Assembly: GCF_014204325.1 (NCBI RefSeq)
Contig: NZ_JACHKT010000014.1
Coordinates: forward strand, 1 to 64,000
Length of the DNA: 64,000 nucleotides
Source: Arcicella rosea
GTDB lineage: Bacteria > Bacteroidota > Bacteroidia > Cytophagales > Spirosomataceae
Direction: 5' to 3'
The position numbers and the translations under genes were made by a program. This document shows positions 4,009 through 39,235 of the stretch, piece after piece; position 1 is the first letter of the stretch; each line of letters opens with the position of its first letter. The notes under the pieces are model-generated. The model was given only the letters and a program-made list of their open reading frames with translations. It made no database searches and was not told the origin of the DNA.

Positions 4009-4929
4009 ATGGCAAAGAATATCAAAATGTCGATTGCTGAAAAAGCGAGAGTAGCTATCACAAATAGTAGTTTTTCACCCTTGGAATCGATTAAACAGAA
4101 TATTACTGTTCTTGAAGAATTAAAAAGCTTTATTCCGCCACTGTTAGATGCCGAATTGGCACAACTAAAAGCTAATTTATTGGCAAATGGCTGTAAAGAC
4201 CCTTTGTTGCTTTGGGAAACTACCAAAGATGTTATTGGTCTAGGAAGCAGAGAAGAGCCAGCTTATGTGTTAATTGATGGACACAACCGTTACGGAATTT
4301 GCAAGGAATTTGGGATTACTTTCAATGTTCAATTATTGTCGTTCAATTCTTTTAAAGAAGTAAAAGAACACATGATTGATTTGCAATTGGGACGAAGAAA
4401 CTTGAATGCACAGCAGGCTTCGTATTTACGTGGATTACGCTATAACACTGAGAAAAACGATGTTATTGATAATTTACAAGGCAAAAAAGAGGAAATAGAT
4501 TCAGATGGTCAAAATGTCCATTTGGAGAAAGAACCTAAAATTACCACTGCTGAAAGATTAGCAAAAGAGTATAACGTTGGTGAAAAGACAATTAGAAGAG
4601 ATGCCGCTTTTGCCGAAGGATTAGAAAAACTAACACCTACACTTCGTAATGAAGTACTTTCGGGCAAGAAGAAAGTTGACAAAAATAAAATTCAATTATT
4701 AGCAAAATCGAATGAAGAAAACCAATCAATTGATGATATTGAAAAAGTAGATGAAATTTTACAACAAGTAACAAAAGAGAAAAGTACAGAGAATAATCAA
4801 ATTGATATTGCTCAAGAAAAATATAACAAAGTTTTAAGTACGATTAACGAAGCTTATCAAACCAGAAGTATTCAAGCTTTTGAAGCAGTTGAAATTGCTT
4901 TACAAGAATTCAAAATGATATTAAACTAA
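4009..4929 (+). CDS. parB: ParB-like centromere-binding protein
   Basis: ParB/Spo0J-type protein of 306 residues, partner of the upstream ParA. The ParB/sulfiredoxin-like N-domain is visible around VLIDGHNRYGICKEFG and LQLGRRNLNAQQASYLRG (residues about 85-145), and a helix-turn-helix follows near 180-205 (TAERLAKEYNVGEKTIRRD). The C-terminal 80 residues are charged and probably helical, fitting a dimerisation region. A parS-like palindrome (4505-4521) lies inside the gene, between the N-domain and HTH, and two more lie just beyond its stop. The canonical GERR CTP-binding motif is not obvious; the nearest equivalent may be LGRR. Function in partition is well supported by position; biochemical detail is not. 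Confidence 0.88.
   Translation: MAKNIKMSIAEKARVAITNSSFSPLESIKQNITVLEELKSFIPPLLDAELAQLKANLLANGCKDPLLLWETTKDVIGLGSREEPAYVLIDGHNRYGICKEFGITFNVQLLSFNSFKEVKEHMIDLQLGRRNLNAQQASYLRGLRYNTEKNDVIDNLQGKKEEIDSDGQNVHLEKEPKITTAERLAKEYNVGEKTIRRDAAFAEGLEKLTPTLRNEVLSGKKKVDKNKIQLLAKSNEENQSIDDIEKVDEILQQVTKEKSTENNQIDIAQEKYNKVLSTINEAYQTRSIQAFEAVEIALQEFKMILN
4505..4521. promoter_or_regulatory. parS-like palindrome 1 (inside parB)
   Basis: ATGGTCAAAATGTCCAT fits ATGGNCANNNTGNCCAT and continues outward as CAG and TTG. The identical 17-mer occurs at 4941. Inferred ParB binding site. Confidence 0.6.
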
Positions 4930-4940
4930 GTATTTGTCAG

Positions 4941-4957
4941 ATGGTCAAAATGTCCAT
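4941..4957. promoter_or_regulatory. parS-like palindrome 2 (after parB)
   Basis: An exact copy of the 17-mer at 4505, 11 bases after the parB stop codon. The repetition outside coding sequence argues that it is kept as a DNA site and not for the residues it encodes. Confidence 0.62.
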
Positions 4958-5000
4958 TAGGAAAAATAATTGACCAGATAGAAATTAATGAATTTTAAAA

Positions 5001-5037
5001 AAAAGCTCAGATGGACATTTTGACCATCTGAGCTTTT
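5001..5037. terminator. Bidirectional terminator carrying parS-like palindrome 3
   Basis: Perfect 14-bp stem: aaaagctcagatgg (5001-5014) pairs with ccatctgagctttt (5024-5037), with A-runs before and T-runs after. It separates the converging parB and phosphodiesterase genes. The upper stem and loop (5011-5027) are themselves the palindrome ATGGACATTTTGACCAT, so one element appears to serve as both terminator and partition site. Confidence 0.8.
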
Positions 5038-5042
5038 TCGTT

Positions 5043-6308
5043 TTACTTCTTTAAAATTCCGTCTAAAACTTTCAGTTTACCGTCGATTTTATGCTCGTAT
5101 TTTAAGCCAAGAATTTTGCTAATCATTGGATAAATATTCACGTTTTCAAATCCGTCAATTTTTGTTTGTGATTTAAAAGCTGGTCCCCAAGCAAAAAATG
5201 TTGCGTGCATATCCTCCAAAGCTGGGTCGAAACCGTGTTTGCCTGGGGTAGTTGATTTTCCCGTAATGCCAAATACTTTTGGTAAATGCGGTACAAGCAA
5301 AATATCACCAATACGATTATACTTGTCGTCTTTTTTTGCGTAATGCCAACGGCTTGGAATATCTTTCTTCAAATACACATCAAAATCTTTCGCTTCTTTT
5401 TTCAAGGCTTTGTAAGTTGGCAAAATGTCTTTTTTGTCTTTTGCATAAAGCTGGAGTAAAGCATCGCCACGAGGAATGATAAATTTGGTGGGGTCAATCG
5501 CAGCAGGTAAAAGCATTGGATGTTCGTTTTCAACTTTAGTCATTCCGTGGTCAGAAACAAAAACAAAGTTTATTGGCAAATGAAGTGAATCTACCGTAGC
5601 TACGAGTTTCCCAATACTTTTATCGACAAAATGTACGGCTTCTTCAGTTTCTTTTGAATCTGGTCCATAAGTATGTGCTTCGTGATCTACTTCAGGAAAA
5701 TAGAAAGTAATAATATGCGGACGTTTATCTTCTGGCAATTGCAACCAGTTTTTTACCGTTTGGATACGAGTATCAATATCAATTTTCTCGTTGTAATTGT
5801 AATAATAAGTAGGCAAAATACCTTGAATATTACTTTCAGAAGCCACCCAATAAAAGCTGGCACTGAGCATCTGTTGTTTTTCTGCCAAAACCCAAAGTGG
5901 CGTTCCGCCATACCAAGAGCCATCGGCAACGGCTTTTTTATTACTCATTCCATAATTTTCTTGGCGTTGAGCATCATAAAATGAATTATCAACCAAACCA
6001 TGATGAGAAGGATACATTCCTGTAACGATGCTATAATGGTTTGGGAAAGTAAGTGATGGAAAAGAAGGAAGCATAAACGAAGCCGTTACGCCATCATTAC
6101 TTAGTTTACGAAGATTTTTTGCTTGATATTTATCAGTAAAATCTGCCCTAAAACCATCTGCTGAAATTAATATAACATAAGGTTTTTGCTGCTGTTCTTG
6201 GCTATTTGTACGGTTTGGAATGATTTGCTGTGTTAAATCCTGAGAAAAGCCATTGTACAAACACAAATATGAAAGAACGAAGAAGAATAGTTTTGTTGAT
6301 TTTTTCAT
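5043..6308 (-). CDS. Ectonucleotide pyrophosphatase/phosphodiesterase (alkaline phosphatase superfamily)
   Basis: Exported enzyme of 421 residues in the type I phosphodiesterase/nucleotide pyrophosphatase family, expected to hydrolyse phosphodiester or pyrophosphate bonds of extracellular nucleotides. After a signal peptide (KKSTKLFFFVLSYLCLYNG) the metal and nucleophile motifs are clear: ISADGFRADF (first Asp), PSLTFPNHYS (Thr nucleophile in TFPNHY), EVDHEAHTYGP (Asp and His ligands), VSDHGM (Asp-His) and GKHGF (His). Length is typical for bacterial NPPs. I chose ATG 6308; an in-frame TTG five codons upstream would add residues before the signal peptide. It converges on parB and is divergent from the regulator gene at 6572. 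Its place beside a phytase locus suggests phosphate scavenging. Confidence 0.87.
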   Translation of the reverse strand: MKKSTKLFFFVLSYLCLYNGFSQDLTQQIIPNRTNSQEQQQKPYVILISADGFRADFTDKYQAKNLRKLSNDGVTASFMLPSFPSLTFPNHYSIVTGMYPSHHGLVDNSFYDAQRQENYGMSNKKAVADGSWYGGTPLWVLAEKQQMLSASFYWVASESNIQGILPTYYYNYNEKIDIDTRIQTVKNWLQLPEDKRPHIITFYFPEVDHEAHTYGPDSKETEEAVHFVDKSIGKLVATVDSLHLPINFVFVSDHGMTKVENEHPMLLPAAIDPTKFIIPRGDALLQLYAKDKKDILPTYKALKKEAKDFDVYLKKDIPSRWHYAKKDDKYNRIGDILLVPHLPKVFGITGKSTTPGKHGFDPALEDMHATFFAWGPAFKSQTKIDGFENVNIYPMISKILGLKYEHKIDGKLKVLDGILKK

Positions 6309-6450
6309 TTGAAATACTATCAAAAATTGATAGGCTTTAAAATTTGTTGAAGTGAATTGATGATTTGTAAAATCTGTAAAAGCAATTTAGCCCATAACTA
6401 GTCAAAAATCAAAAACTTGTTCTTTTCCTTCATCAAATCGGCACAAAAAT

Positions 6451-6484
6451 CAAATTTAAAATATCGAAGCACATCATCGTTACA
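6451..6484 (-). promoter_or_regulatory. Candidate promoter of the phosphodiesterase gene
   Basis: On the minus strand TAAATTTG (6458-6451) matches the -7 consensus. At the -33 position, 19 nt away, the expected TTTG is replaced by TGTAACG (6484-6478). TGTAACG also occurs near 8238, 8346 and 8365 before the receptor gene. An activator-dependent promoter is possible. Confidence 0.35.
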
Positions 6485-6571
6485 TTAAATGTTTGTTAAA
6501 CTTCTGTGTGGCGTACAAATTATGAGAAGTATCAAGTGGAAATTTGAAAGATTTTTTATTTGATATTCCTT

Positions 6572-8218
6572 ATGAATTACTTCAAACATTACTTCCTTTT
6601 TCGTTTTCTGAAAAGCTTTTTGCTAATCATTCTTTTTCTGCCCAACATTTTTTCACAATCGCTTAAACAAGACGAGAATGAAAATATTGGATTATTCTCG
6701 CATAATCCAGACGCTACTTTTAGGCTGTTGAAAGAAAAATATACGAAAGCCAACGAGCAGAAAGATGCCGTACAGGCAGGCATTTACTTGCAACAAATGG
6801 GACAAATCTGTTATCATTTTGGGCATTATCCGCAGGCTTTGGATTTTCATTTACAAGCCGGTAAGCTATTCAAGGCGAATCAGAAGAAAGATTTATTGGC
6901 AGAAAACTTAAACGATTTAGGTGTTTTGTATTACTATAATCGTCAGCGAAAGCTTGCTCGCCAACATTACGATGAAGCTTTTGCTATTTATAAAAGTAAT
7001 CAGAATGACTTGGGCATGGCGAATACTTTGGGTAAAATCGGGCAATTGTACGAAAAACAACAGAAGTACGATAGTGCCTTTACCTATCAGCGACAAGCGA
7101 TGAGTCATTACCAAAAAATCAATAATCGTCAGGGAATGTCTAAGATTTATGAAAATATCGGAAGTATTTATGAAGATTTAGCACGCTACGATTCGGCTTA
7201 TTTTTATTATCAACAAGCATTTGTAGTCAATCAAAAAACTAAAAATCACATTGCTCAAATTGAAGTACTGAATAATTTGGGCGATGTTTTGAGGAAAACA
7301 GGAAAGCTAAAAGAGGGTTTGGGGTATTCAAAAAAAGCCTTGGATTTGGCTTTGGTTTCTAAGGAAACGTATCAATTATCGGGTGCTTATCGAGACATTG
7401 CGAAAGGATTTAATTTAATGGGTCGGAATGACAGTGCTTTTCATTATTTAGAATTAAGTCGAAAAACGGCTTTGGATATTTACGACGAAAACAGCAATAA
7501 ACAACTGGCTTTGCTACAAGTGATGTACGACATTACGAAAAAAAATAATGAAATAGAGCAACTGAATAATGCCCGAAAGACGAATCAAATTATTGGTTTT
7601 GCCATTGGAATTGTTACGATTTTGTTGGCAGCTTTGGCAACGGTTATCATTAGTCGCCAGCGTTTGAAAATTAAGAGTGAACGTTTTTTGAATGAAGAAA
7701 AAAATCATGTGTATGAAACACAAAAAACCTTGATGGAAGTAGCTTTACGCAACAAAGTATTGGAAGAAGAAAACCTAAAAAATCTGTTGGAAATTAAATC
7801 AAAAGAATTGAGTTCGCATACGTTGCACGTGATTCAGAAAAACCAATTGCTTGAAAAGCTCTATCACCGATTAGAAGAAATGATTAAAGACGACCGCCGA
7901 GACCCCAAACGTCAGCTTCGACAAATCATGCAGGAAATCAACCAAAGTTTTAATCACGACCAGTATTGGGAAGAATTTAGAGGAATTTTTGAACAAGTAC
8001 ACCAAAGCTTTTTTGATAAACTAAAAGCTACTTCCGATAACCTTACGGCAAATGATTTACGATTGATTGCTTTGCTAAAAATGAATCTTACTTCTGCCGA
8101 TATTTCTTCCCTCTTGGGCATCTCTCAAGATAGTTTAAGAGTAGTTCGATACCGATTACGAAAGAAATTAAACCTTGCTCAAGGTGATAGTCTTTCGGCA
8201 TTTATTCAAGCTTTATAA
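6572..8218 (+). CDS. Membrane-anchored TPR protein with C-terminal HTH (regulator)
   Basis: Predicted regulator of 548 residues. An N-terminal hydrophobic segment (FLKSFLLIILFLPNIFS) acts as signal or anchor, residues about 50-330 hold several tetratricopeptide repeats (for example YPQALDFHLQAGKLF, QKYDSAFTYQRQAMSHY, ARYDSAYFYYQQAFVV), one membrane helix lies near 338-362 (IGFAIGIVTILLAALATVI), then a coiled coil and a C-terminal LuxR-like helix-turn-helix near 490-536 (TSADISSLLGISQDSLRVVR). This periplasmic-TPR, membrane, cytoplasmic-HTH layout is common in Bacteroidota. It precedes the receptor-lipoprotein-phytase genes by 281 bases on the same strand, so it probably controls them. ATG 6572 is chosen over an in-frame TTG at 6560. 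The ligand is not predictable. Confidence 0.75.
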   Translation: MNYFKHYFLFRFLKSFLLIILFLPNIFSQSLKQDENENIGLFSHNPDATFRLLKEKYTKANEQKDAVQAGIYLQQMGQICYHFGHYPQALDFHLQAGKLFKANQKKDLLAENLNDLGVLYYYNRQRKLARQHYDEAFAIYKSNQNDLGMANTLGKIGQLYEKQQKYDSAFTYQRQAMSHYQKINNRQGMSKIYENIGSIYEDLARYDSAYFYYQQAFVVNQKTKNHIAQIEVLNNLGDVLRKTGKLKEGLGYSKKALDLALVSKETYQLSGAYRDIAKGFNLMGRNDSAFHYLELSRKTALDIYDENSNKQLALLQVMYDITKKNNEIEQLNNARKTNQIIGFAIGIVTILLAALATVIISRQRLKIKSERFLNEEKNHVYETQKTLMEVALRNKVLEEENLKNLLEIKSKELSSHTLHVIQKNQLLEKLYHRLEEMIKDDRRDPKRQLRQIMQEINQSFNHDQYWEEFRGIFEQVHQSFFDKLKATSDNLTANDLRLIALLKMNLTSADISSLLGISQDSLRVVRYRLRKKLNLAQGDSLSAFIQAL

Positions 8219-8499
8219 GTGCTTAATGATTTAGAAATGTAACGGTAACAATTTGATAATGTATCGAAAGTCAATTTTTATATTACTGAAAATCAGCTAC
8301 TTGTATTGTGTTTGTTACTCTTGTTGCCTTCTTGTTTATGGGCTTTGTAACGCTGTTGCTTTTTTGTAACGCCCAAAATTTGCTTCTGTTCTGATTGTAT
8401 TTGCACCTTTGTCTCATCAAAAAAACGAGTGCAAATAAATTTTTATTTCTCTTACGAGTAAAATATCAGCAAGTGAAATAAAAGCAATACAAAGAAAAC
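8219..8499. promoter_or_regulatory. Upstream region of the phytase-locus receptor
   Basis: Contains three TGTAACG words (8238-8244, 8346-8352, 8365-8371); the last two sit in the repeat TTTGTAACGC at 8344-8353 and 8363-8372, 19 bp apart. TGTATTTG at 8396-8403 is a one-mismatch -7 element. A regulator binding site is possible, but the spacing is not that of a classical Pho box. Confidence 0.3.
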
Positions 8500-11256
8500 A
8501 TGAACAGAATTTACAGCCTAATAAGTTGTTTTATCCTACTGTCATTTACCGCTTTTTCAGGAACATTTAGTGGAAAAGTAATCGACAAAGAAACAGGAGA
8601 ACCTTTGATTGGAGCGAATGTAAGATTGGATAAAAAAGGCTTTTATGATGCCACAGGTTTAGACGGTTCTTTCAGCATCAAGCAATTGCCAGCAGGGAAA
8701 TATCAAATAAAAATTAGCTATGTTTCATATCAGAGTGTCACCAAAGAAATCACGATTGGCAAAGAAGACCTTTTTCTAAGCTTTAGTTTAGAGCCAGACG
8801 TAAAACAGTCTTTGAATGAAGTAGTAGTAAGAGCCAGTGCCGATAAATCAACCGAAAATTCTGCTCGTTTTTCAGAACGAAAAGCCAATCAGTTGATGAA
8901 TATTGTTTCGGGAAGAGCCATAGAAATTTCACCAGATTTGACGGTGGCAAATTTAATCCAAAGAGTATCGGGCGTTTCTATTGAACGCAATAGCAATGGC
9001 GATGGACAATACGCCATTTTGCGAGGCATGGACAAGCGTTACAATTATACTTTGGTGAATGGCATCAAAATTCCAAGTCCCGACAATAAGTATCGTTATG
9101 TGCCTTTAGATATTTTTCCTTCAGAATTGTTAGGACGATTAGAAGTATTCAAAACCTTAACGCCTGATTTAGAAGGTGATGCCGTTGGCGGTGTAGTAAA
9201 TATGGTGATGAAAGACGCACCAAATCAGTTAGAAATCAAAGGAAATTTGGCAGGCGGTTATAATGAATTATTTATGAATCGTGATTTTACAAGTTTCAAT
9301 GCCAGTCAGATTCAGCAATTATCGCCTTATGAATTAAACGGAAATACTTATTCAGCCACAGCCAAAGATTTTCCAAAAGGAACACTAACACTTCAAAGCA
9401 AAAAACCTATTCCAAACCTTGTAGGCGGTTTCTCTATTGGAAACCGCTTCCTACAAAACCGTTTGGGGGTAATTTTAGCAGGAAGTTATCAGAATACTTA
9501 TCGTGGCAGTAATAGTAAATTTTACTCTTCAACGGTGTATGATACCGAAAGAACGTCAAGAATTACCAGTTTGGCAGAACGCCAATACTCTGAGCGTCAG
9601 GAGCGTTTGGGTTTGCACGCTAAAATAGATTTTCGCTTGAACGAAAACAATAAAATTCAATGGTACAATGCCTACATGAATTTGCTGAATGAACAATTGC
9701 GTGATACCAAAACCACAGAATACTCTTCGGGTGGCTACGACCCCGAAAAAGGAAATGCAGGCTTAACTTTCGGCATTCGTTCAAGAGTAACCCAACAGCA
9801 AATTTTCAACAGTACTTTGCAAGGAACGCATCAATTAAACGACAAATTAAAATTCAATTGGTCGGCTGTATATTCTACGGCCTCAAATCAAACGCCAGAT
9901 AATACCAGTTTTAGCGTATTGGGTAAAAGAGAAAATTTTGTAGAAACGAAAATCTATCCGCAACAAAGTAGCCGACGTTGGGAACATAACGACGACCGAG
10001 ATTTAGCGACTTACTTGAATCTAACTTATTTAAGTGAATTGAAAGGTAATCCATTGGAAATCAGTACGGGCGTATTGTATCGAGATAAGCAAAGAAATAA
10101 TTTTTATAATAATTACATCCTACAACCAACCAATCTTTTGGCGGTTTACGGAAAAGATTTTAACAGCTACGACGAAGTAAATTTTACCGTTCAAAATCCA
10201 AGAGGAACAGTCGCTTCTGCTTTGAATTATGATGCTACTGAAAAAATTGCGGCAGGGTATTTAATGGCAAAATTGAGTACAAAAGCTACGCAAATTATCG
10301 GTGGAATGCGGGTAGAACATACAGACCAAGGTTATCAAATGCTTTTTCCATTGGGCGAACTTCGTCCTTCGGGCAATCAGGTTTATACCGATTTTTTACC
10401 AAGTTTGAATATCAAGCATAGTTTGAGCGACGCTCAAAACCTGCGTACTTCTTATTTCCGTTCAATCAATCGTCCTGGATTTTTTGAAATAGTACCGGGA
10501 AAAGTCGTAAACGAAGAATTTCAAGAAAGAGGAAATCCAGATTTACAGCGTGCCATTGCGGATAATATTGATTTACGATACGAGTACTTTCCCAATCCAA
10601 CAGACCAAGTAATGGCAGGGATTTTTTATAAGGCAATCAAAAATCCGATTGAATATACTTTACAAGTAGATGAAACCCGTGGGCAAGATGTTTTTTATAC
10701 GCCCGGTAATTTCGGCAATGCCAATAATTATGGTTTTGAATTAGATGCCATCAAGTATTTTAAAAACTTCGGAATCAAAGCGAATTATACTTATACCAAC
10801 TCTTCTATCACCACCAAAAAGAATATCAGAGTGCGTGATAATGCAGGGAATTTGAGTTCTATTTCCGTCAATCAAACTCGTCCACTTTATGGACAATCAG
10901 AACATATCGGTAATTTTTCTTTACTCTATAAAAATAATAAAACAGGTTGGGATGCCCAGTTAGCGGCTTCGTACACAGGAGACCGTATCAATACCGTTTC
11001 GCAGTTTTTAGACAATGATTTGTGGCAAGAAGCCTTTATTCAAATGGATTTTTCGGTAGAAAAGAAACTCAACGACCGCTGGGTGATTTTTGCCAAAGCC
11101 AACAATTTATTGAATACGCCCATGCGAGTTTTCATTAAAAATACCAACCCCGTAAACAGTAATATTCCAGATCAAGCCAGCAGTAATGGCAAAACTTTGA
11201 TTCGGGAAGATTTTTATCAAAGAAGTTATTTAATCGGCATAAAATTCAAATACTAA
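8500..11256 (+). CDS. TonB-dependent outer membrane receptor of the phytase locus
   Basis: Outer membrane importer of 918 residues. Signal peptide (YSLISCFILLSFTAFS), carboxypeptidase-regulatory-like beta-sandwich at about 22-105 (SGKVIDKETGEPLIGANVRL), plug at about 120-240 (LRGMDKRYNYTLVNGIKIP; DLEGDAVGGVVNMVMKDAP) and a long beta-barrel ending in the aromatic residues YLIGIKFKY, as outer membrane barrels do. It starts a block with a surface lipoprotein (27 bases downstream) and a phytase, so the likely cargo is a phytate breakdown product or phosphate-bearing compound; this is inference from neighbours. No SusD homologue is present, unlike glycan systems. Confidence 0.88.
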   Translation: MNRIYSLISCFILLSFTAFSGTFSGKVIDKETGEPLIGANVRLDKKGFYDATGLDGSFSIKQLPAGKYQIKISYVSYQSVTKEITIGKEDLFLSFSLEPDVKQSLNEVVVRASADKSTENSARFSERKANQLMNIVSGRAIEISPDLTVANLIQRVSGVSIERNSNGDGQYAILRGMDKRYNYTLVNGIKIPSPDNKYRYVPLDIFPSELLGRLEVFKTLTPDLEGDAVGGVVNMVMKDAPNQLEIKGNLAGGYNELFMNRDFTSFNASQIQQLSPYELNGNTYSATAKDFPKGTLTLQSKKPIPNLVGGFSIGNRFLQNRLGVILAGSYQNTYRGSNSKFYSSTVYDTERTSRITSLAERQYSERQERLGLHAKIDFRLNENNKIQWYNAYMNLLNEQLRDTKTTEYSSGGYDPEKGNAGLTFGIRSRVTQQQIFNSTLQGTHQLNDKLKFNWSAVYSTASNQTPDNTSFSVLGKRENFVETKIYPQQSSRRWEHNDDRDLATYLNLTYLSELKGNPLEISTGVLYRDKQRNNFYNNYILQPTNLLAVYGKDFNSYDEVNFTVQNPRGTVASALNYDATEKIAAGYLMAKLSTKATQIIGGMRVEHTDQGYQMLFPLGELRPSGNQVYTDFLPSLNIKHSLSDAQNLRTSYFRSINRPGFFEIVPGKVVNEEFQERGNPDLQRAIADNIDLRYEYFPNPTDQVMAGIFYKAIKNPIEYTLQVDETRGQDVFYTPGNFGNANNYGFELDAIKYFKNFGIKANYTYTNSSITTKKNIRVRDNAGNLSSISVNQTRPLYGQSEHIGNFSLLYKNNKTGWDAQLAASYTGDRINTVSQFLDNDLWQEAFIQMDFSVEKKLNDRWVIFAKANNLLNTPMRVFIKNTNPVNSNIPDQASSNGKTLIREDFYQRSYLIGIKFKY

Positions 11257-11283
11257 AACAAAATTTTAACATTTATCCTTATC

Positions 11284-12534
11284 ATGAAAAATTCAAAAAT
11301 GTTTGTGGGCATCTTTTTATTGATGACCTTGTTCGCTGCGTGTAGCAAAGACGACAATACGACAACACCAGTTGTTGAGCAGTCGGTAACAGGTGAAGTA
11401 TCAGGTACTTGGGCAAAAGGCTCTATCATTCAAGTAAAAACAGATATTATCATTCCAGCAGGAAAAAGCTTGACGATTGAAGAAGGCGTAACCGTAGTAA
11501 TGGATACAACGACTAAGCCAGAAATCATCGTAAACGGTAATTTGTATGTGTTGGGAAGTACGGCGAGTCCAGTGAAATTGACCGTTCCAGAAGGAGCAAG
11601 AATTACCAAAAACAAATTTGGTAAATTATGGGGCGGAATTTTGGCTTCAAAAACTTGTTCTGAATTAGTAATCAGCAATGCGATTTTAGAATATGGCGGA
11701 GCAGTAACGACAGAATCTTCAACTTCTGTAAAGCAAGGTTTATACAAAGCCGTTAGCGGTGAATTCGACCCAGCAATCTGGTTTTCAAATACCGCAGGAA
11801 AATTAGTGATGCAAAATTCAACCGTTCGTTTTTGGCAAGACGACTGTACTTATTTGGAAGGAGGAAGTATCATTTTTACCAATAATACTTTTCATACAAC
11901 GGGCGAAAGCGGTGGCGAAGGCATTAATATTAAATCAGGTTGTGTGGCTGACGTTGCCTATAATTTGATTTACAGCACTAACACAAACGCTTTGAAATTA
12001 TCAAATTCTGGCGACCGTACTCCACAAGCTTATGTGGTTGCTTACAACAACACGATTGTAAACACAGGCTGGAGAAGACCAACGATTAAAGGTGGTTCTA
12101 TCTGGTTAGAAGCAAGTGTGCGTGCAGAATTGTACAATAATTTGATGGCAAATACTCGTTTCGGTATCAAAAGAGATGTGAAGAAACCAGAAGATAGTCG
12201 TTCTAAGGCAAGTAATTCTTTGTATTATTCGTATTCTCAAGAAGGAGCAACGCAATTCCAACCAAGTGCTGAAATCTTAACTGGAACAAACGATATTATC
12301 AGTAATAAAGCAGGCGATAACGACCCTAAATTTGTGAATTATCCAGTAAGTACGAGTCAATCAAATGCAGATTTCTCTACTTCTTGGGATTTTCACTTGG
12401 CGACAGGTTCGCCAGCCTTGAACAAAGGAATTACTACTTTCACCAGAAATTTCAAAGACGGAATTACGATTAACGGACAAACCTACAAATCGCCAGAACC
12501 AGCTTCTTATATTGGTGCTTTTGGAGTTAAATAA
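11284..12534 (+). CDS. Surface lipoprotein with parallel beta-helix
   Basis: Lipoprotein of 416 residues. The signal peptide ends in lipobox FAAC, followed by SKDDN, which resembles the lipoprotein export signal that places Bacteroidota lipoproteins on the cell surface. The body shows repeated short strand units rich in Asn, Gly and Thr (LVISNAILEYGGAV, LVMQNSTVRFWQDD, IIFTNNTFHTTGE, YVVAYNNTIVNTG), typical of right-handed beta-helix proteins such as pectate-lyase-like folds. No catalytic signature was recognised. It sits 27 bases after the receptor gene and before phytase, so it may bind substrate for the receptor. Function unknown. Confidence 0.72.
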   Translation: MKNSKMFVGIFLLMTLFAACSKDDNTTTPVVEQSVTGEVSGTWAKGSIIQVKTDIIIPAGKSLTIEEGVTVVMDTTTKPEIIVNGNLYVLGSTASPVKLTVPEGARITKNKFGKLWGGILASKTCSELVISNAILEYGGAVTTESSTSVKQGLYKAVSGEFDPAIWFSNTAGKLVMQNSTVRFWQDDCTYLEGGSIIFTNNTFHTTGESGGEGINIKSGCVADVAYNLIYSTNTNALKLSNSGDRTPQAYVVAYNNTIVNTGWRRPTIKGGSIWLEASVRAELYNNLMANTRFGIKRDVKKPEDSRSKASNSLYYSYSQEGATQFQPSAEILTGTNDIISNKAGDNDPKFVNYPVSTSQSNADFSTSWDFHLATGSPALNKGITTFTRNFKDGITINGQTYKSPEPASYIGAFGVK

Positions 12535-12714: not shown

Positions 12715-12730
12715 AAAAAAAAGATAAATA

Positions 12731-13804: not shown

Positions 13805-13810
13805 ATGTTG

Positions 13811-27732: not shown

Positions 27733-27733
27733 A

Positions 27734-31203: not shown

Positions 31204-31408
31204 AATGATATGATTTTGGAATCCTGATGTAGTAACAAAAGGATTATTTCCTGAAATAACAATCAGGAATTAGTAAAGATATTTCTCTTCACTTTTAGAT
31301 TTTTCTAAAATATGAAAAGAAATAAATTGATAAAACTAGTGATAGAGTAACGTAAAATCATCAAAAACTCTGTAAAGCTTTTGTGAAATTGTTTTTATGA
31401 GAAGAAAC

Positions 31409-31750
31409 TCAAGGGGCATTTTTTGCAATAAAATGCTCAAATAAAATCTGATAAAAATAGCGTTTAAAATGAGATGGTGTTTCAAACTGGAATGCTAATG
31501 GATTGGTATTTTGAATGTAAGAAAGGACTGATAGTGCGTCTGGTTGCTCGCTTGTAGCGTTTAAATCCACAAATACTCTAATATTAGAACCGAGGGTTTG
31601 TTGTTCGCTTGGGCTTTCGATTTTACATTTATGCTTGCCAAAATGTTGAGCTTGTTTCACCGACAATGTTCTTCCATAAACAGAAAACACCAATATTTGG
31701 CACATTAAGAATGTGCTAAATAACCGTATTATGAAAGATTTTTTTTGCAT
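31409..31750 (-). CDS. Hypothetical small exported protein
   Basis: 113 residues with a likely signal peptide (IIRLFSTFLMCQILVFSVYG). The mature part has a single Cys and a His/Lys cluster (HFGKHKCKIES) and a C-terminal aromatic helix (HFKRYFYQILFEHFIAK). I do not recognise a family. It stands alone, 206 bases upstream of the MMPL gene. ATG 31750 is preferred over ATG/TTG four codons upstream because it leads straight into the signal peptide. Could be a real short gene or a low-value open frame. Confidence 0.45.
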   Translation of the reverse strand: MQKKSFIIRLFSTFLMCQILVFSVYGRTLSVKQAQHFGKHKCKIESPSEQQTLGSNIRVFVDLNATSEQPDALSVLSYIQNTNPLAFQFETPSHFKRYFYQILFEHFIAKNAP

Positions 31751-31887
31751 ATCAGAATGCAAAATTACGGTGTTTTTTGTTAGAAAGAAATATTTTACTA
31801 AGAAGAGACTAGGAGTAAAGTAACAAGAAAAAGCCCTGCATCAGAATGACGCAAGGCTGAATTACAAATTGAAAGCAAAGAGGGTTC

Positions 31888-32889
31888 TTAAACTTTTGTT
31901 TTAACCAGTTTTGAAAGTCCTTTTGTCGCTCTCCACTGGTCATTTCCGCCAAGTACATTTTGAACAGTATATTTTTTGACGTCTGATTTTGCTAATTGTT
32001 TTGACCATTGTACTCTTGCTTGCGAAATACCACCTACTTCTCTTGAGTGATACTCTGCATAAAAAGCAGTTTTTTCCGCATTTACTTTATGCCAATTATG
32101 CCATCCTTCTGGCTTAATGATGTTCGACATTTCACAACATAAAAATACCGTTTTAGCATAATCTCGCCACGGCCTTCCTAAATAATAAGTAGCTGCTGGG
32201 GCACTTCCTGTTAAAGTACAACGATTAAATACAAAACCATGAGATTGATTCTCTGGCGTTGAGGCAGCCGTAAAGAAGCCTGCATCTAATTTACCATTTA
32301 ATTGGCAATGGTCAAAATACGCAATTGCCCAGCCAAAAATAAAATCTACCGTACCTTCAATATAACAGTTTTTATAATACTGTCGAGTACCAGCACGCTT
32401 TGGGTATAAAGTATCTTGAAATCCTAAAAAACGACAATTGATAAAACGAGCCTTATCGCCGTCAACTAACATCGCTACTGCTTGTCCTACAGGGCCAGCA
32501 CCATTTGCAAAAGTAATGTTTACGGCAGTAAAATCATCTGCAACGATTCTGGTGGATGCGGAAGTCGTAGTACTTATTTTTATACCATTTTGACCTAATT
32601 TTCCAGAAAAATCATCGAAAGTTAAAATGGTACCAGAGGCATTTTCTCCGACGAGCGTCACCATATTTTTGGTAGAATCTAGGACGATTTTTTCCTTATA
32701 AGTACCACTTTTAACAAAAATTAGTACAGGAGTATTGTTATTAAGAGGAACAGCATCAAAAGCTTCTTGAATACTTTTGAAATCTCCACTACCATCTTTC
32801 GCCACCGTTATTTGTTTGGCTGGTGAAGCCAATAAATCCATACTTAGCATACAGCAGAAGTAAAGGAAAAGGAATTTTAATTTTGACAT
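31888..32889 (-). CDS. Pectinesterase (pectin methylesterase)
   Basis: Exported carbohydrate esterase (family CE8) of 333 residues that removes methyl groups from homogalacturonan. Signal peptide KFLFLYFCCMLSMDLLA; then the beta-helix opening ITVAKDGSGDFKSIQEAFDA. Active-site motifs are complete: GPVGQAVAM (Gln), FLGFQDTLYP (Gln and Asp), GTVDFIFGWA (nucleophile Asp) and YLGRPWRDYA (Arg, Trp). Length is normal for a single-domain enzyme. It neighbours a large secreted glycosidase, suggesting plant polysaccharide use. Confidence 0.92.
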   Translation of the reverse strand: MSKLKFLFLYFCCMLSMDLLASPAKQITVAKDGSGDFKSIQEAFDAVPLNNNTPVLIFVKSGTYKEKIVLDSTKNMVTLVGENASGTILTFDDFSGKLGQNGIKISTTTSASTRIVADDFTAVNITFANGAGPVGQAVAMLVDGDKARFINCRFLGFQDTLYPKRAGTRQYYKNCYIEGTVDFIFGWAIAYFDHCQLNGKLDAGFFTAASTPENQSHGFVFNRCTLTGSAPAATYYLGRPWRDYAKTVFLCCEMSNIIKPEGWHNWHKVNAEKTAFYAEYHSREVGGISQARVQWSKQLAKSDVKKYTVQNVLGGNDQWRATKGLSKLVKTKV

Positions 32890-33189
32890 GATATTTATCT
32901 ATTCAATATCAGGAATAATTTCGGCTCGAATTGCTAAATCAAGTCAAAATGCGTCCTCATTTAATGTTTAGTAATTGTTTTTGGTTAAGTAATTTTGAAT
33001 CATGTAAATTTATATAAACTTTTCAATATAAATTATGATTTTAATTGTTTTTTGTAAATATTAGTCATTAAATGAAGTTGATAGGTAGAAGTATCTGCTT
33101 TAAAACGAAAAAAGACCTCTAAATAAATAGAAGTCTTCTTTCGTTGAATCTGGATGAATTTTACTAAATTGTAATTGCTTAAATATTAA
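32890..33189. other. Gap between pectinesterase and 33190 gene, with a hairpin
   Basis: AT-rich DNA with no gene. The one structure seen is a terminator-like hairpin at about 33112-33142 (aaagacctcta pairing with tagaagtcttc around a short A/T loop). No gene reads into it from the left, so it might end a small transcript or lie in the leader of the gene at 33190. Confidence 0.3.
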
Positions 33190-33447
33190 ATGGTTATGGC
33201 TGATTCAATTTATTTTAAGGATATATTTTTATCAACAATTTACGATGCTAAAAGTAAAAGAATAAGAGTACGCCCAAAAGAAGGACAAAAGGTTCCAGTT
33301 TTGTGGGTGAGCTGCTCCAGAAAACAACGTAGCCAAATGCAATTAGGTACGGTTTTTAGAACAGACGTTAAATTGATTAATACTGGAAAAAGAAAACCTT
33401 ACTTAGCTGCCACTAAAAAAATTATCGGACAGCTAAGTTTGTTCTAA
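33190..33447 (+). CDS. Small basic hypothetical protein
   Basis: 85 residues (83 if ATG 33196 is used), rich in Lys and Arg (KSKRIRVRPKEGQKVPVL, SCSRKQRSQMQ, GKRKPYLAATKK), no signal peptide. The strand-rich pattern might be a small nucleic-acid-binding domain, but I recognise no family. Its stop codon overlaps that of the converging glycosidase gene by four bases (33444-33447), leaving no room for a terminator. Confidence 0.5.
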   Translation: MVMADSIYFKDIFLSTIYDAKSKRIRVRPKEGQKVPVLWVSCSRKQRSQMQLGTVFRTDVKLINTGKRKPYLAATKKIIGQLSLF

Positions 33448-36400
33448 TTTGTTTTGATAATTTTTTTCACCATTTGCTCTTTTCCTTGAATCACTTCGAT
33501 GGCATAATTTCCAGCAGGTAAGTCGCTAAAGCTTATTTTTTGAGAGAATCTTACGCCTGTTTTTTCATAAACATCTTGTATCATTACTCTGCCTAGTGTT
33601 AAGTCGCTTACTTTTACGGCTAAATTTTCTGTGCTTTCGTTTTCAAGGGTTAATAATACATAATCTGTTGTTGGATTAGGATATGTATTTAATGATGCTA
33701 AAGCTGGCATTTCGTCAATTGATTTCTCTGTACTAGCAAGGCTAAACATTTCTTTTGTAGGAATAATGTTTCCTGTTTTAGTTGTTGCTGTTTCTGTAGC
33801 AGTTGGTATAAAGAAAATCGGCGTTTCAGTAACGTTTATAGTAAATTGTCCTGAGCTACCAGTAAGTGCAGAAACACTCATAGAATCTGCCCCTATTTTT
33901 GGAGTATATAAATTTGCTTTTGAAACATTACCAAGATTGAACGTATAGCTTCCTGTACGACCTTTTTCATCTGGAATAAATAACACGTAAGCAGATTTTC
34001 CGTTTAATTCATATCTATCAACCATTGGGTCTTGCGAAATCGTTTCTTTATATACATACTCACCCATCAATTTATTAGTTTGATATAAGTAATCTGCTGC
34101 TGGTCTGCGTGTTTTATCTTGATTGATTAAACCAGATGAACTAAAATGTAGCGGGTTTGCAAAGTTATCGTCATAGATTTCATAAAAGAAAGTTTTAGCA
34201 ACGCCTAAACGATTGTACAACAATGATGATCTTAAAGTCCAGTCTGCTTGCGTAACATATTCAGATTTATTTCCGATTGGAATCGCTTTCAATGAACTTC
34301 CTTGATTGATGTCATAACCTAATTCTGAAATCCAAACAGGCATATCGTAGGCATAATCATGTGCCATTTGAACAAAGTCTTTAGCTGTTTGACCTGCACT
34401 AGATACTTCTGGTGCAACACCACGACTAGATGTTCCGCTTTGGCTAGAATTAGCATCATCAGAGTAAAGGTGATAGTTGATTACATCCCAACATAAATCA
34501 ACCTTTCCATCAGCTTTATAGCCTCTGAATTCTTTACACCAGTCAATCATACCTCTTACATAATCTGTTGATGCTGATGCCAAGCCTGCCATTACAACGT
34601 TCATTGTTGGGTCTGCATTTTTTACACCTACACCAGGTCCCATTGTATTTTTGTGACCATCATAGAAAGCAGATAAGTTTGCGGCATGTTCACGGGCAGT
34701 TTGGTAAGCACTACGTCCTTTCCACCATTTATCACGTTCGTTACCACATTCCATGTATTTTACTACTCCCAAACCAACTTTAACAGTATTTACACGGTCG
34801 AAAGTCCATCTAGGTTTATCATAAACACTCAAAAGACTTCTATCAACATTCGTATTATTTCCATAACGGGCTGCAAATTGAAAAGCAACACGAGCTTGTT
34901 GAATATAAGAAGCAGGGTCAGTGACAGATTTTCCGTATTTAACAGGAGTAACATTTCTATCTCTTTGTTCTTCAGGATAGGTATTTACAAGCCAATCTGG
35001 AGCTGTTTGGATACATGCTAAAACTTCAATACCTTGTTTTTTACAACGGTCATATACTTTATCGTAATCCCAACCACCATTAAATGTAGGGTTGAAAGTA
35101 TAGCTTCCTTCACGAGCTTCCAGTTTATCCCAGTCGATATAATGGCGGAAACCAGTAAAAGATTTAACAGCATTGAATTTTGTTTCGTCAATTTCATCAG
35201 CATCAAATGGGTTATAAAAATCCCATTCAAAACCGTTTGCACCAAAACCATCTCTCATTTTAACGGTATTGTGTGCTACTGTTACAGGTTTAGTACTTTG
35301 TTTATGTGTACCATACAATTCCATTTCAGTTGGATATTGACCATGAGTATTGATAACCAAGTATTTAATTTTTCCAGTTGGAGGAGTTGCTAACACGAAG
35401 GAGTTAGGATTGGCAGGATCTGGCCCAACCCATGCGTTATAAGCTTCACCTGTGAATTTAGCAACAGGAATTCTTTCCCATTTATCTGTAATGATAGAAA
35501 GGGTCATTGGGTCATTAGTAAATATACCTTGTCCATCATAAAAACGAATACTTTCTAATGTAATTTCTTCATCATCAAGAAGTGGATAGTAAGCATCGTA
35601 ATTCGTCATTACTTTTACCCAACTTTGTTCAACAGTAGTTGTTAAATCGCCATCCACTAATTCTTTCAAGCCTCGTCCAATGGTATTAAGTTCATACCAA
35701 CGTTTCGGGTCGATTGTGATTTTTGTACCTTTTACAACAGGGATTGGGGTAGGTGTTGGTGTAACGACCACAGGCTCTGGTTCTGGTATTACCACTGGTT
35801 CTTCTGGTATTATTACAGCAGGAGTTGTAGCCGCTAATCCATAAACATATACTTTTTGTGGAATATCATTTCCGTATTTACGTACAATAATCGCATCAGC
35901 ATCAAATGGGCTTGCGACTACAATATCTACAAATGTTTTGTAGGTAAGTCCTTCAAAAGTACCGAGTAATACTTTATTCGTTCCATCTTGTGCATATAGA
36001 GATACAGGATGCTCTGTGAAAGTGCCTTCAGTATCATACAAAGATAATTTTGTGATTTTACTACGTTTCTCTAAAGTCAATTTTACATCAACCCATTTAT
36101 TATTACTGCTTCCCCAAGCATTTTGAACGTAATCGTTCAAATCATCATTCAACCAAGGCGTAAAATCTTGCCCTGTGTTTGAACTAGGTTTGATAGTAAT
36201 GATTTTGATGCGTTCAGCAACAGGCGTTGGGTCTATTGGAGCTGTTGGTTGTGTCGTAGCCGGTGTTGTTGGTTCAGTTGGTGCTGGAGCTGTTGGTTCT
36301 GTTGGCGTTGTTGGTTCTGTCGGTGCTGGTGTTGTTGGTTCAGCCAGCGTCGGTGTTGTTGGCTCTGGTTCTGGTGTTACCACTGGTTCTTCAAGTATTG

Positions 36401-37331
36401 TTACAGCAGGAGTTGTAGCCTCTAATCCATAAACATATACTTTTTGTGGAATATCGTTTCCGTATTTACGTACAATAATCGCATCAGCATCAAATGGGCT
36501 TGTCACCACAATGTTTACAAATGTTTTGTAGGTAAGTCCTTCAAAAGTACCGAGTAATATTTTATTCGTTCCATCTAGTGCATAAAGAGATACAGGATGA
36601 TCTGTGAAAGTACCTTCAGTATCATACAAAGATAATTTTGTGATTTTACTGCGTTTCTCTAAAGTTAATTTTACATCAACCCATTTATTATTACTGCTTC
36701 CCCAAGCATTTTGAACGTAATCGTTCAAATCATCATTCAACCAAGGCGTAAAATCTTGACCTGTGTTTTCGCTAGGTTTTACAGCTGTTATTTTAATGCG
36801 TTGAGCTTCTGGAGTAACAACAACAGGTGCTGGCGTTGGTTGGATTACTACTGCTGGTGTTTCAGGGATGATTATTGGGCTCGTCGGAATACCATAAATT
36901 TGTACCTTTTGAGGAATATCATTGGCATATTTACGAACAATAATAGCCTTTGCATCAACTGGAGTATTAACTGTGATATCAAAAAATGAGTTATAACTTA
37001 GCCCTTTAAAAAGACCCAATAAAACCTTATTTGTACCATCTGTAGCATAAATTGATACGGGAGTATTTTCAAAAGTTCCTTGAGCATCGTACAAAGAAAT
37101 TTTAGTAACCTTGCATGATCTTTCCAAAGAAAGAGTTACATCTACCCATTTGAAATTACCAGACCAAGCACTTTCCACTTGGTCGTTTAAATCATCATTT
37201 AGCCATGGACTATAATCTTGCCCTGTATTTTCACTAGCGGTGATAGAGGCAATTTTGATTCTTTCAACATTTTGGCTAAAACCTAGAAGCGGAGCTAGGT
37301 ATAACAAGATAAAAAGTAAGCGTTTTTCCAT
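33444..37331 (-). CDS. Type IX-secreted modular glycosidase with repeated binding modules
   Basis: 1295 residues. Signal peptide; three homologous beta-sandwich modules at about 22-152, 176-305 and 373-500 (each with ENTGQDxxPWLNDDLND or a close form, KWVDV, AIIVRKY and DIPQKV); Pro/Thr/Glu linkers at about 306-372 and 506-530; a fourth, different module at about 535-670; a (beta/alpha)8-like catalytic domain at about 685-1120 with GNERDKW (acid/base Glu865) and VWISELGYD (nucleophile Glu1003), the clan GH-A pattern; and a C-terminal sorting domain (NTYPNPTTDYVLLTLEN to the end) for type IX secretion. I cannot place it in a numbered GH family. The pectinesterase next door suggests a plant or algal polysaccharide substrate. 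Confidence 0.8.
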   Translation of the reverse strand: MEKRLLFILLYLAPLLGFSQNVERIKIASITASENTGQDYSPWLNDDLNDQVESAWSGNFKWVDVTLSLERSCKVTKISLYDAQGTFENTPVSIYATDGTNKVLLGLFKGLSYNSFFDITVNTPVDAKAIIVRKYANDIPQKVQIYGIPTSPIIIPETPAVVIQPTPAPVVVTPEAQRIKITAVKPSENTGQDFTPWLNDDLNDYVQNAWGSSNNKWVDVKLTLEKRSKITKLSLYDTEGTFTDHPVSLYALDGTNKILLGTFEGLTYKTFVNIVVTSPFDADAIIVRKYGNDIPQKVYVYGLEATTPAVTILEEPVVTPEPEPTTPTLAEPTTPAPTEPTTPTEPTAPAPTEPTTPATTQPTAPIDPTPVAERIKIITIKPSSNTGQDFTPWLNDDLNDYVQNAWGSSNNKWVDVKLTLEKRSKITKLSLYDTEGTFTEHPVSLYAQDGTNKVLLGTFEGLTYKTFVDIVVASPFDADAIIVRKYGNDIPQKVYVYGLAATTPAVIIPEEPVVIPEPEPVVVTPTPTPIPVVKGTKITIDPKRWYELNTIGRGLKELVDGDLTTTVEQSWVKVMTNYDAYYPLLDDEEITLESIRFYDGQGIFTNDPMTLSIITDKWERIPVAKFTGEAYNAWVGPDPANPNSFVLATPPTGKIKYLVINTHGQYPTEMELYGTHKQSTKPVTVAHNTVKMRDGFGANGFEWDFYNPFDADEIDETKFNAVKSFTGFRHYIDWDKLEAREGSYTFNPTFNGGWDYDKVYDRCKKQGIEVLACIQTAPDWLVNTYPEEQRDRNVTPVKYGKSVTDPASYIQQARVAFQFAARYGNNTNVDRSLLSVYDKPRWTFDRVNTVKVGLGVVKYMECGNERDKWWKGRSAYQTAREHAANLSAFYDGHKNTMGPGVGVKNADPTMNVVMAGLASASTDYVRGMIDWCKEFRGYKADGKVDLCWDVINYHLYSDDANSSQSGTSSRGVAPEVSSAGQTAKDFVQMAHDYAYDMPVWISELGYDINQGSSLKAIPIGNKSEYVTQADWTLRSSLLYNRLGVAKTFFYEIYDDNFANPLHFSSSGLINQDKTRRPAADYLYQTNKLMGEYVYKETISQDPMVDRYELNGKSAYVLFIPDEKGRTGSYTFNLGNVSKANLYTPKIGADSMSVSALTGSSGQFTINVTETPIFFIPTATETATTKTGNIIPTKEMFSLASTEKSIDEMPALASLNTYPNPTTDYVLLTLENESTENLAVKVSDLTLGRVMIQDVYEKTGVRFSQKISFSDLPAGNYAIEVIQGKEQMVKKIIKTN
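35773..36778. repeat. Near-identical tandem duplication inside the glycosidase gene
   Basis: DNA at about 35773-36190 recurs at 36361-36778, offset exactly 588 bp (196 codons), with few differences. It covers binding modules 3 and 2 and their linkers. Between them, 36200-36360 holds low-complexity repeats encoding Pro/Thr/Glu runs (EPTTPAPTEPTTP). Duplication looks recent. Confidence 0.85.
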
Positions 37332-37935
37332 TGTTATTGGCGGTTAAAAATGGAGTGAATAAAAAATAAAATAACAGGAAAATTCTTGTATTATTTGTAA
37401 ATTTTCAAACACTTTTGGTTTAAACGATGAATTTATTATCCTAAGTTAAAAAAATATGTTTGATATTTTTTTTAAAATATTAAAAAACAATTAAAATTTA
37501 TTTTTAGGATTTGTTTTTCGTCACTGATTTTCTTGAAATTTTTTTAAAAAATCACGCTAAAAATTATTTAGCGTGTATTTATGACTTTTATTCTTCAAAA
37601 TGTCTTTTCTAAAAAATAAAAAAGATGTTTCTACAAAATATACGAAATATTATAAGGTTTGGTCGTAATATTTAAAAAAATGAGAACAAATACTTATATG
37701 TTTTTTTTACAATATTAGGAATGAGGGACGCAATAAACAGATGAGGGTTGTTTCCTTAAAACCTGATTGATGTCAAATACTGTATTTTAGCTGTATGAGA
37801 AAAGTCAGATTATTACGAGTAAAAGGGTAGAATCATAAACCTTATGTATTTAAGTCTGAGATTTTGTTACAATAGAATTGGATTGATTGTATTTCCTTAC
37901 GATTTTTGTAACAAACCCTTTTTAACAAATTGAAT
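37332..37935. other. 604-bp gap before the MFS gene
   Basis: Very AT-rich between two divergent genes; no gene seen. It contains an inverted repeat, cacgctaaa (37553-37561) and tttagcgtg (37567-37575), which could be an operator or terminator. Promoters for both flanking genes must lie here, but I found no clear consensus pair. Confidence 0.45.
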
Positions 37936-39180
37936 ATGACTAATACGCTTTCAAAAACTCCCTTACAGCATCTTCTGAGTATTCCTGTGATTGTTGCCTC
38001 TCTAGGTTATTTTGTTGATATTTATGACCTTCTTTTATTTGGAATTGTTCGGGTTTCAAGTTTGCGAGATTTAGGGTTGAATGATGAGGAAATCTCGTCT
38101 GTCGGAAAAGATATTCTCAACTGGCAAATGGGCGGTTTATTAATTGGAGGGATTTTATGGGGCGTTTTAGGAGATAAAAAAGGAAGATTATCTGTACTTT
38201 TTGGCTCTATTATTACTTATTCTATTGCCAATATTGCTTGTGGTTTTATCCAAGACCCAACAACTTATGCTATTTTACGATTCGTCGCTGGTGTAGGCTT
38301 GGCGGGTGAATTAGGTGCTGGCATCACTTTAGTTTCGGAAGTATTACCAAAAGAATTGAGAGCCTTAGGCACATCATTAGTGGCAGGGATTGGCTTATTT
38401 GGTGCGGTGGCGGCATATTTTACCGTAACACAGTTTGGAGGTTGGCGAAATGCTTACTTTATCGGTGGCGGTTTGGGTATAATATTACTGTTGATGCGAA
38501 TCAGTGTTTTTGAATCGGGAATTTTTGAAAATATTAAAAAGCAGAAACACGTTACTAAAGGTAACTTCTTTTCCTTATTTACAAATTTGGATAGATGTAA
38601 ACGTTATTTGAAATGTATTGGTATCGGAATGCCTACTTGGTTTGTTATTGGGATTTTAGCCACTTTCGCCAATGAATTTGGAAAGAAATTAGGCATTCCA
38701 GAAAACATTGAGCCTGGAAGAGCCATTATGTTTTGCTATGTAGGTATTGCCTTTGGAGATTTATCAAGCGGTATTATTAGTCAATTGTTGAAATCTCGTA
38801 AAAAAGCTGTTACTATTCTATTAGTACTCTCATTGATTTGTAGTGTTGTTTTTCTTTATGGAGGAATTTCTACGGCATCAGGTTTATATACACTTTGTGT
38901 GTTTATGGGTTTTTCAGCAGGATACTGGGCAATGTTTGTAACGATTGGAGCAGAACAATTCGGAACAAACCTCAGAGCAACGGCTGCTACAACTGTTCCG
39001 AATATGGTAAGAGGAACTGTCATTGGAATGACATTATTGTATTCAAGTTTAAAAGGAGATATTGGCGTATTTCATTCGGCAGCCATTGTCGGAGCTATCT
39101 GTTTTATAATAGCTTTCTATTCTATTTTAACCATTCAAGAGACACATGGGAAGGATTTGGATTATTTAGAAGAAGAATAA
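37936..39180 (+). CDS. MFS transporter (metabolite:proton symporter type)
   Basis: 414 residues with about 12 membrane helices. The sugar/organic acid porter signatures are present: GILWGVLGDKKGRLSVLFG after helix 2 (GxLxDRxGRR-like) and GVGLAGELGAGITLVSEVLPKELRA after helix 4. It resembles the metabolite:H+ symporter group rather than drug antiporters. ATG 37936 is chosen over a TTG two codons earlier. It converges with mqo, and one shared terminator lies between them; a dicarboxylate such as malate would fit the neighbour, but that is only inference. Confidence 0.8.
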   Translation: MTNTLSKTPLQHLLSIPVIVASLGYFVDIYDLLLFGIVRVSSLRDLGLNDEEISSVGKDILNWQMGGLLIGGILWGVLGDKKGRLSVLFGSIITYSIANIACGFIQDPTTYAILRFVAGVGLAGELGAGITLVSEVLPKELRALGTSLVAGIGLFGAVAAYFTVTQFGGWRNAYFIGGGLGIILLLMRISVFESGIFENIKKQKHVTKGNFFSLFTNLDRCKRYLKCIGIGMPTWFVIGILATFANEFGKKLGIPENIEPGRAIMFCYVGIAFGDLSSGIISQLLKSRKKAVTILLVLSLICSVVFLYGGISTASGLYTLCVFMGFSAGYWAMFVTIGAEQFGTNLRATAATTVPNMVRGTVIGMTLLYSSLKGDIGVFHSAAIVGAICFIIAFYSILTIQETHGKDLDYLEEE

Positions 39181-39194
39181 AAATAGATTTTAAT

Positions 39195-39235
39195 AAAAAT
39201 TCCCAAATGGTCAAATTGTCCATTTGGGAATTTTT
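39195..39235. terminator. Bidirectional terminator carrying parS-like palindrome 4
   Basis: Perfect 16-bp stem, 39195-39210 with 39220-39235, nine-base loop, A-run before and T-run after. Its top (39207-39223) is ATGGTCAAATTGTCCAT, fitting ATGGNCANNNTGNCCAT. This repeats the design of the parB terminator 34 kb away. Confidence 0.8.

Follow-up and report, generated by a model that had tools for sequence, protein, structure and literature searches.

What is the role of a short palindrome that recurs five times on one bacterial replicon, twice inside a gene and twice at the top of hairpins between converging genes? The question is raised by the first 64,000 nucleotides (the window) of contig NZ_JACHKT010000014.1 of Arcicella rosea (RefSeq assembly GCF_014204325.1), where the 17-mer ATGGNCANNNTGNCCAT is found in, behind and far from a parB gene. 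An earlier note, made from the letters of the window, took the copies for a probable parS centromere that is twice built into terminator hairpins. The computational follow-up reported here supports that reading of the palindrome, as the sites are confined to their replicon, are clustered at parAB in the relatives with the nearest ParB proteins, and have arms that follow residues of the ParB recognition helix. Very probably the five palindromes are the parS (centromere) sites of the plasmid's own ParABS system, as predicted from sequence.

Five palindromes on one replicon

The window has exact matches to ATGGNCANNNTGNCCAT only at positions 4505, 4941, 5011, 39207 and 59552, just as the earlier note had listed them, and 100 dinucleotide shuffles gave none (mean 0.00). 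The description of copies in and next to parB is also correct, with the first within the gene, the second 11 nt after its stop codon and the third behind it. In the search of the whole replicon and host genome that had been proposed, the motif was absent from the rest of the 132,528-bp contig and from the other 76 of the 77 contigs of the 5.31-Mb genome, i.e., all five sites lie on this contig. Within the 17-mer, the copy at 59552 is the only perfect palindrome. It lies in a helicase gene, in a loop that is shorter in four of five aligned homologues; the corresponding peptide is absent from all five, and their genomes have no match to the motif. The sites have the form ATGGWCANNNTGWCCAT and are not of the canonical chromosomal parS type, a 16-bp tGTTtCAcGTGAAAAa/g-type sequence as given in passages of PMC4368675.

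Among 149 related genomes, ATGGWCANNNTGWCCAT was found at 27 sites in 11 genomes. Nineteen of these sites are clustered, five on the contig studied here and six, four and four on contigs G081:C26, G043:C9 and G058:C196, respectively, which encode the ParBs closest to that of the window (56% identical) and carry their clusters at parAB. Outside the four cognate contigs there were eight single sites in the 149 genomes, so that the sites are far from equally common on replicons without this ParB. In the three closest relatives copies upstream of parA are spaced 78-79 bp, a one-mismatch copy is found within parB at the corresponding linker position, and a further copy lies 17 nt after parB in a hairpin of 20-21 pairs. 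Other repeated palindromes are scattered on G081:C26 and G058:C196, such as TTCAAGACTTAGTCTTGGA (six and five copies) and AGACGTTACATGTAACGTCT (five copies on each).

A subfamily with the arms GGTTCA...TGAACC has exactly three sites in each of four genomes (G008, G043, G058 and G081). All of them lie at a parB, and the remaining 11 of the 15 genomes searched have no site (reversed control, one match). Four sites of the pattern ATGGGCANNNTGTCCAT, all in a parB, were found in 3 of these 15 genomes, and the pattern TGCTCANNNTGAGCA was dropped as too short for specificity. The arm-blind pattern CATAANNNNCAAAATGNNNNTTATG matched 64 sites in 23 of the 149 genomes, with one match for the reversed control. 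All but one of these sites (63 of 64) are on contigs with a listed ParB match, and the remaining one, G089:C22, has arms equal to the parS of a co-resident contig. The arm positions that CATAANNNNCAAAATGNNNNTTATG leaves unspecified were complementary at 75 of 92 positions in 23 unique pairs, compared to a mean of 37.9 and a maximum of 61 in 10,000 shuffles; four, three and two of the four unspecified pairs were complementary in 29, 27 and 8 sites, respectively.

Sites within parB and the recognition helix

The first scan of genome contigs with the single ParB protein as query gave no match, and the family was then represented by 95 homologues longer than 200 amino acids, of which 94 are distinct. 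With a CA...TG centre and at least five of seven pairs as the criterion, an internal site was present in 48 of the 94; two sites outside the linker were dropped, which leaves 46 genes with one to three linker sites before the recognition helix of the helix-turn-helix (HTH) domain, and three more homologues have a copy behind the gene only. A frequent linker peptide is (H)KGQNVP(Y), encoded by CATAAGGGACAAAATGTCCCTTATG. The arms of the linker sites vary yet remain mostly complementary, and the AAA centre is sometimes TTT, by which QN becomes HF in proteins that are otherwise alike. Of nine named plasmid genes, six have an internal CA...TG palindrome with at least six of seven pairs, that of SG7u.111 (offset 300) lying outside the linker, and no internal site was found in the genes of Mitsuaria, Aureibacter pAT3 and Runella rosea unnamed2. 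A palindrome was also seen before the HTH in 10 of 29 tested ParB-like genes of viral contigs (L321-L400); the linker-site design may thus be shared by phages or phage-like elements.

A homologue of this kind has site and reader in one gene and so documents the DNA specificity of its own protein. Among 49 ParBs, which are related proteins, Lys193 was accompanied by G4 of the half-site in 32 of 32 cases and other residues at this position in 0 of 17. Similarly, Arg196 goes with T2 (13/13) and Lys196 with a purine at base 2 (31/31), while the five other residues at 196 comprise one Ile with T, one Leu with a purine and three Leu with mixed bases. Across 41 aligned ParBs the distance between sites correlated with that of the recognition-helix region (r 0.68), the HTH (0.48), the N-domain (0.32) and the C-domain (0.19), and on the tree of the ParB N-domain there are three and four cases in which one branch has a change in both protein and DNA. 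In these analyses, as in those of incompatibility and hairpins below, G052:C14 and G086:C4, whose palindrome is outside the linker, were left out and the sites of G055:C2 and G008:C7 were set by hand; G058:C196, whose protein is identical to that of G043:C9, was put back for the incompatibility and hairpin counts.

New data came from 160 listed loci of public genomes and viral contigs (the best 80 of each). After removal of 52 loci without a recognisable HTH and five duplicates, 103 were tested, 60 with and 43 without a site. Thirty-five of the site-bearing loci were new, those from genomes still being relatives of the first ParB set. In these 35, Lys193 was found with G4 in 19 of 19 and a residue other than Lys without G4 in 14 of 16, and Arg196 with T2 in 5 of 6; all 23 with Lys196 had a purine, and six had other residues at 196. 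The ParBs of Oscillatoria and of Persicobacter pPP8 (Lys193, Arg196) have sites with G4 and T2, and that of Allocoleopsis (Ala193, Glu196) has a site with C4 and C2. The rule that matches a ParB to its site appears, as far as can be judged from these alignments, to be readable from two residues of the recognition helix.

In partition-based incompatibility, co-resident ParBs would be expected to read different sites. None of 42 same-genome pairs of site-bearing ParBs shared the 7-nt half-site, as against 209 of 1183 different-genome pairs; label shuffles gave a mean of 7.2 and reached zero in a fraction of 0.0002. The absence of sharing is what this kind of incompatibility predicts. The A. rosea genome itself has four further ParB-family genes, on contigs C6 (139662 and 186799), C13 (88043) and C16 (46030), which suggests several co-resident plasmids, and two of them (C6 at 139662, and C13) have an internal palindrome of their own that differs from the one described here.

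A ParB dimer would be expected to read two half-sites ATGG(A/T)CA through its HTH, with Lys193 matched to G4 and Arg196 to T2. A partition complex that is moved by ParA would form first on the sites in and behind parB, three within 523 bp, and those at 39 and 59 kb would act as accessory loading sites. Site 1 is part of the parB coding sequence, where it encodes a flexible linker peptide, so that the gene would carry an address read by its own protein.

The genes themselves comprise what a type I ParABS system has, i.e., a ParA Walker-type ATPase gene, an adjacent gene for a ParB-fold HTH protein and replicon-specific palindromes clustered at par. A Foldseek search with the AlphaFold model of ParB (mean predicted local distance difference test score 89.3) gave 28 PDB chains at E<=1e-3, all of them ParB, Noc, KorB or Spo0J, with ParB and Noc proteins that bind cytidine triphosphate among the closest folds. 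Confidence in the model is lowest, the N-terminus excepted, in the linker whose codons contain site 1. The motif DGHNR is conserved in this family and differs from the GERR of classical ParB.

A number of observations weigh against the centromere assignment. The query-normalised TM-scores of the fold matches are low (0.20-0.38); the ParB of the window matches no Pfam family, and thus none of the Pfam ParB models, and is not recognised in an NCBIfam search; a PDB sequence search with it gave just a weak HTH match (E 0.42); and of 70 homologues 27 match HTH_11. The identification of the protein as ParB rests on the modelled fold, on the parA gene next to it and on a small number of annotated relatives. 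By the criteria used, 45 of the 94 homologues are without a site, and the linker peptide itself favours palindromes: synonymous recoding of the same peptides gave an expectation of 12.7 of 94 genes with a linker 17-mer of at least six of seven pairs, compared to 44 observed, at least three of which look spurious. At arm position 5 many sites, some of this plasmid included, are mismatched (A.A or T.T). This plasmid also lacks the array that the relatives have upstream of parA. The pattern ATGGGCANNNTGTCCAT is weak when taken alone, with three matches of its reversed control against four real ones. Finally, the code has exceptions, namely G4 in two viral proteins with Arg193 and C in one arm for an Arg196 protein.

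Copies at the top of hairpins

The copies at 5011 and 39207 form the tops of terminator-like hairpins (Table 1). RNA folds of the two strands gave -22.3 and -25.8 kcal/mol (z -5.7 and -7.2) at 5011 and -26.5 and -25.5 kcal/mol (z -7.1 and -5.2) at 39207, and no stable hairpin was predicted for the copy at 4941 (z -1.4). The earlier note had described both as perfect stems between converging genes with the palindrome as their top. Top and gene orientation are as it stated, but the stems are not perfect, as each contains one mismatched pair within the parS core, A.A in the 5011 stem and T.T in the 39207 stem. Sequence and fold suggest that both can serve as intrinsic terminators in either direction, having a stable stem and a U-run. 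A simple terminator scan picked up neither hairpin, the probable reasons being the mismatch and the pairing of the A/T tracts within the stem.

Other plasmids whose parS arms differ show the arrangement as well. Among 111 distinct sites there are 47 within the 94 parB genes and 64 outside, and pairing beyond the site (distance 16-19) was found at 20% of positions for the former and 55% for the latter. The 64 outside sites include eight single matches from other genomes and six sites in other or duplicate parB genes; without these 14, pairing was found at 59% of 200 positions (50 sites). Within 700 nt after parB there were 32 candidate copies at 16 of 50 site-bearing loci, or 27 copies at 15 loci without five copies that have three mismatches and are probably due to chance. 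Five types of arm that clearly differ (TGGWC, GGTTC, GTCCC, RGGWC and TACCC) are represented among the hairpin loci, and the arrangement is therefore not one inherited sequence. Stems reach up to 35 pairs with one mismatch allowed. Many but not all of the hairpins lie between converging open reading frames (ORFs), and several long ones have no T-run, so that termination accounts for some of them and not for all. In one region, G072:C37 26505-27678 (L210, L153), four parS-like near-perfect palindromes have stems of 27-35 pairs with different outer arms and no T-run, and within about 0.8 kb of the first three there is no ORF of 60 amino acids.

We propose that sites 3 and 4, on top of such hairpins, would keep the partition complex clear of RNA polymerase and of promoters: a hairpin between converging genes may shield the complex from transcription and ParB from promoters. 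In its full form the proposal, which we put forward tentatively and with slightly less than even confidence, is a centromere that addresses itself, with a linker site in parB on Cytophagales plasmids and in cyanobacterial plasmid and viral homologues, where protein specificity and centromere would be passed on as a single gene and could diverge together, and with further copies selected as tops of bidirectional terminators that halt converging transcripts, one element being both centromere and terminator. It is a toss-up whether the hairpins are instead a by-product, an intergenic palindrome easily growing longer with no benefit for partition. Consistent with a by-product, some sites outside parB have no hairpin extension (the arrays upstream of parA, and the copy at 4941) and some long stems, such as those of G072:C37, have no T-run. 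On the other hand, at least six of eight outer pairs were found in 13 of the 32 copies behind parB (at 11 of 50 loci), where the chance is 0.0064 for each, and the outer arms differ from copy to copy while their pairing is kept.

It is much less probable, and in our view quite unlikely, that the copies in hairpins belong to ordinary terminators and match the motif by chance, and that only the copies at parB are parS. A single match on G078:C43, in a genome without a ParB match, is a terminator-like hairpin between converging ORFs, which shows that the motif and a terminator can be combined by chance. However, two distal chance matches on one 132-kb contig would be very unlikely against a background of eight single sites in 149 genomes, and a chance origin does not fit hairpins that recur behind parB with such different arms.

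Equally doubtful is that the palindromes serve as operators for gene regulation by ParB (or ParA), in the manner of KorB on RK2, and that the centromere lies elsewhere. KorB structures are among the fold matches of ParB, long-range silencing by KorB is described in passages of PMC11790492, and the par region is touched by just one other family of palindromes, the AT-rich TGCTTTTCAAAAAGCA with three copies, which leaves room for a different centromere. Sites that lie within and behind parB, inside a helicase gene and in hairpins at gene ends, together with the spaced arrays of the relatives, argue against operators. That another DNA-binding protein such as a recombinase, restriction enzyme or terminus factor reads the sites is exceedingly improbable: many kinds of protein bind palindromes of this size, but in different lineages, new homologues included, the arms track two ParB residues in the recognition helix, and they remain correlated with the HTH once the N-domain is accounted for (partial r 0.38, against 0.03 for the N-domain given the HTH).

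The par region and known partition systems

Along the DNA the Rep_3 initiator gene is followed by 14 iterons, parA, parB and three of the five sites (Table 1). The iterons are the probable origin of Rep_3 replication. No parS-like match with up to two mismatches was found in the iteron region, and a parS array upstream of parA was rejected for this plasmid, as the repeats there are the rep iterons. The three copies of TGCTTTTCAAAAAGCA on the contig are at 2438, 3877 and 129772, two of them in the rep-parA region. The contig also carries chromosome-like genes (8500-12534 and 37930-43022), including mqo and an MFS gene identified by Pfam and genes for a TonB-dependent receptor and TolC-like proteins identified by eye, and is possibly a chromid.

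Table 1. Coordinates of the predicted parS copies, hairpins and genes in the window
Feature	Position	Strand	Basis or remark
Replication initiator, Rep_3 type, 494 aa	393..1877	-	Pfam Rep3_N and Rep3_C
14 iterons CCTACAWTTTGTTGC, between rep and parA	2031..2791	+	22-bp tandem at 2647-2792
parA, ParA-type ATPase, 315 aa	3041..3988	+	Pfam AAA_31 1.1e-49; CbiA/ParA families
parB, 306 aa	4009..4929	+	Foldseek ParB fold; lower-confidence linker ~151-180; HTH with Lys193, Arg196
parS copy 1 (predicted)	4505..4521	+	within parB; overlaps codons of linker residues 166-171 (DGQNVH)
parS copy 2 (predicted)	4941..4957	+	11 nt past parB stop; no stable hairpin
Bidirectional terminator-like hairpin, parB / phosphodiesterase gene	5000..5038	.	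sequence and RNA fold
parS copy 3 (predicted)	5011..5027	-	top of 5000..5038 hairpin
Type I phosphodiesterase-like gene, converging on parB	5043..6323	-	ORF and Pfam
MFS transporter gene	37930..39180	+	Pfam
Bidirectional terminator-like hairpin, MFS / mqo genes	39192..39238	.	sequence and RNA fold
parS copy 4 (predicted)	39207..39223	+	top of 39192..39238 hairpin
mqo, malate:quinone oxidoreductase	39307..40812	-	Pfam Mqo 2.9e-242
parS copy 5 (predicted)	59552..59568	+	perfect palindrome within SNF2-type helicase gene, variable loop

If the sites are read as proposed, dozens of ParB-parS pairs with a simple code would form a natural data set, useful for the prediction of plasmid incompatibility and as a source of orthogonal DNA labels. 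Should the terminator hairpins have a part in partition, they would reveal a way for a plasmid to keep its centromere free of transcription. The earlier note regarded terminator hairpins as carriers of a partition site as undescribed, and in agreement with this no report of parS in terminator hairpins was found in the open-licence literature, subscription journals lying mostly outside the search.

The system resembles type I ParABS in its ParA-type ATPase, its ParB-fold protein and its short palindromes at the operon; it differs in that its parS is of a non-chromosomal type, its ParB falls outside the Pfam ParB models and its sites lie in a linker and in terminator-like hairpins. A parS inside parB is already known from other systems. 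In Bacillus subtilis, parS-359 lies within the parB coding sequence according to passages of PMC4442127 and PMC4333373; here, by contrast, one to three sites lie in the linker, in about half of the homologues, with arms that co-vary with the protein's own recognition helix. On the Streptomyces plasmid SCP1, parS1 is located within parB1 (passages of PMC13245405), which is again a plasmid parS within its parB, and the main text of that paper does not contain the word 'terminator'. For repABC replicons, passages of PMC9040568 describe parS sites within ORFs, and passages of PMC4368675 do so for Pseudomonas aeruginosa. The repABC sites are similar to those described here in being near and within genes, some far from the operon, but have a different motif, and the main text of PMC9040568 is likewise without the word 'terminator'. 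Specificity residues are known for ParB and Noc, as passages of PMC7383237 set out; the code proposed here is instead drawn from natural covariation with sites in the same gene, and its residues are numbered as in the ParB of the window.

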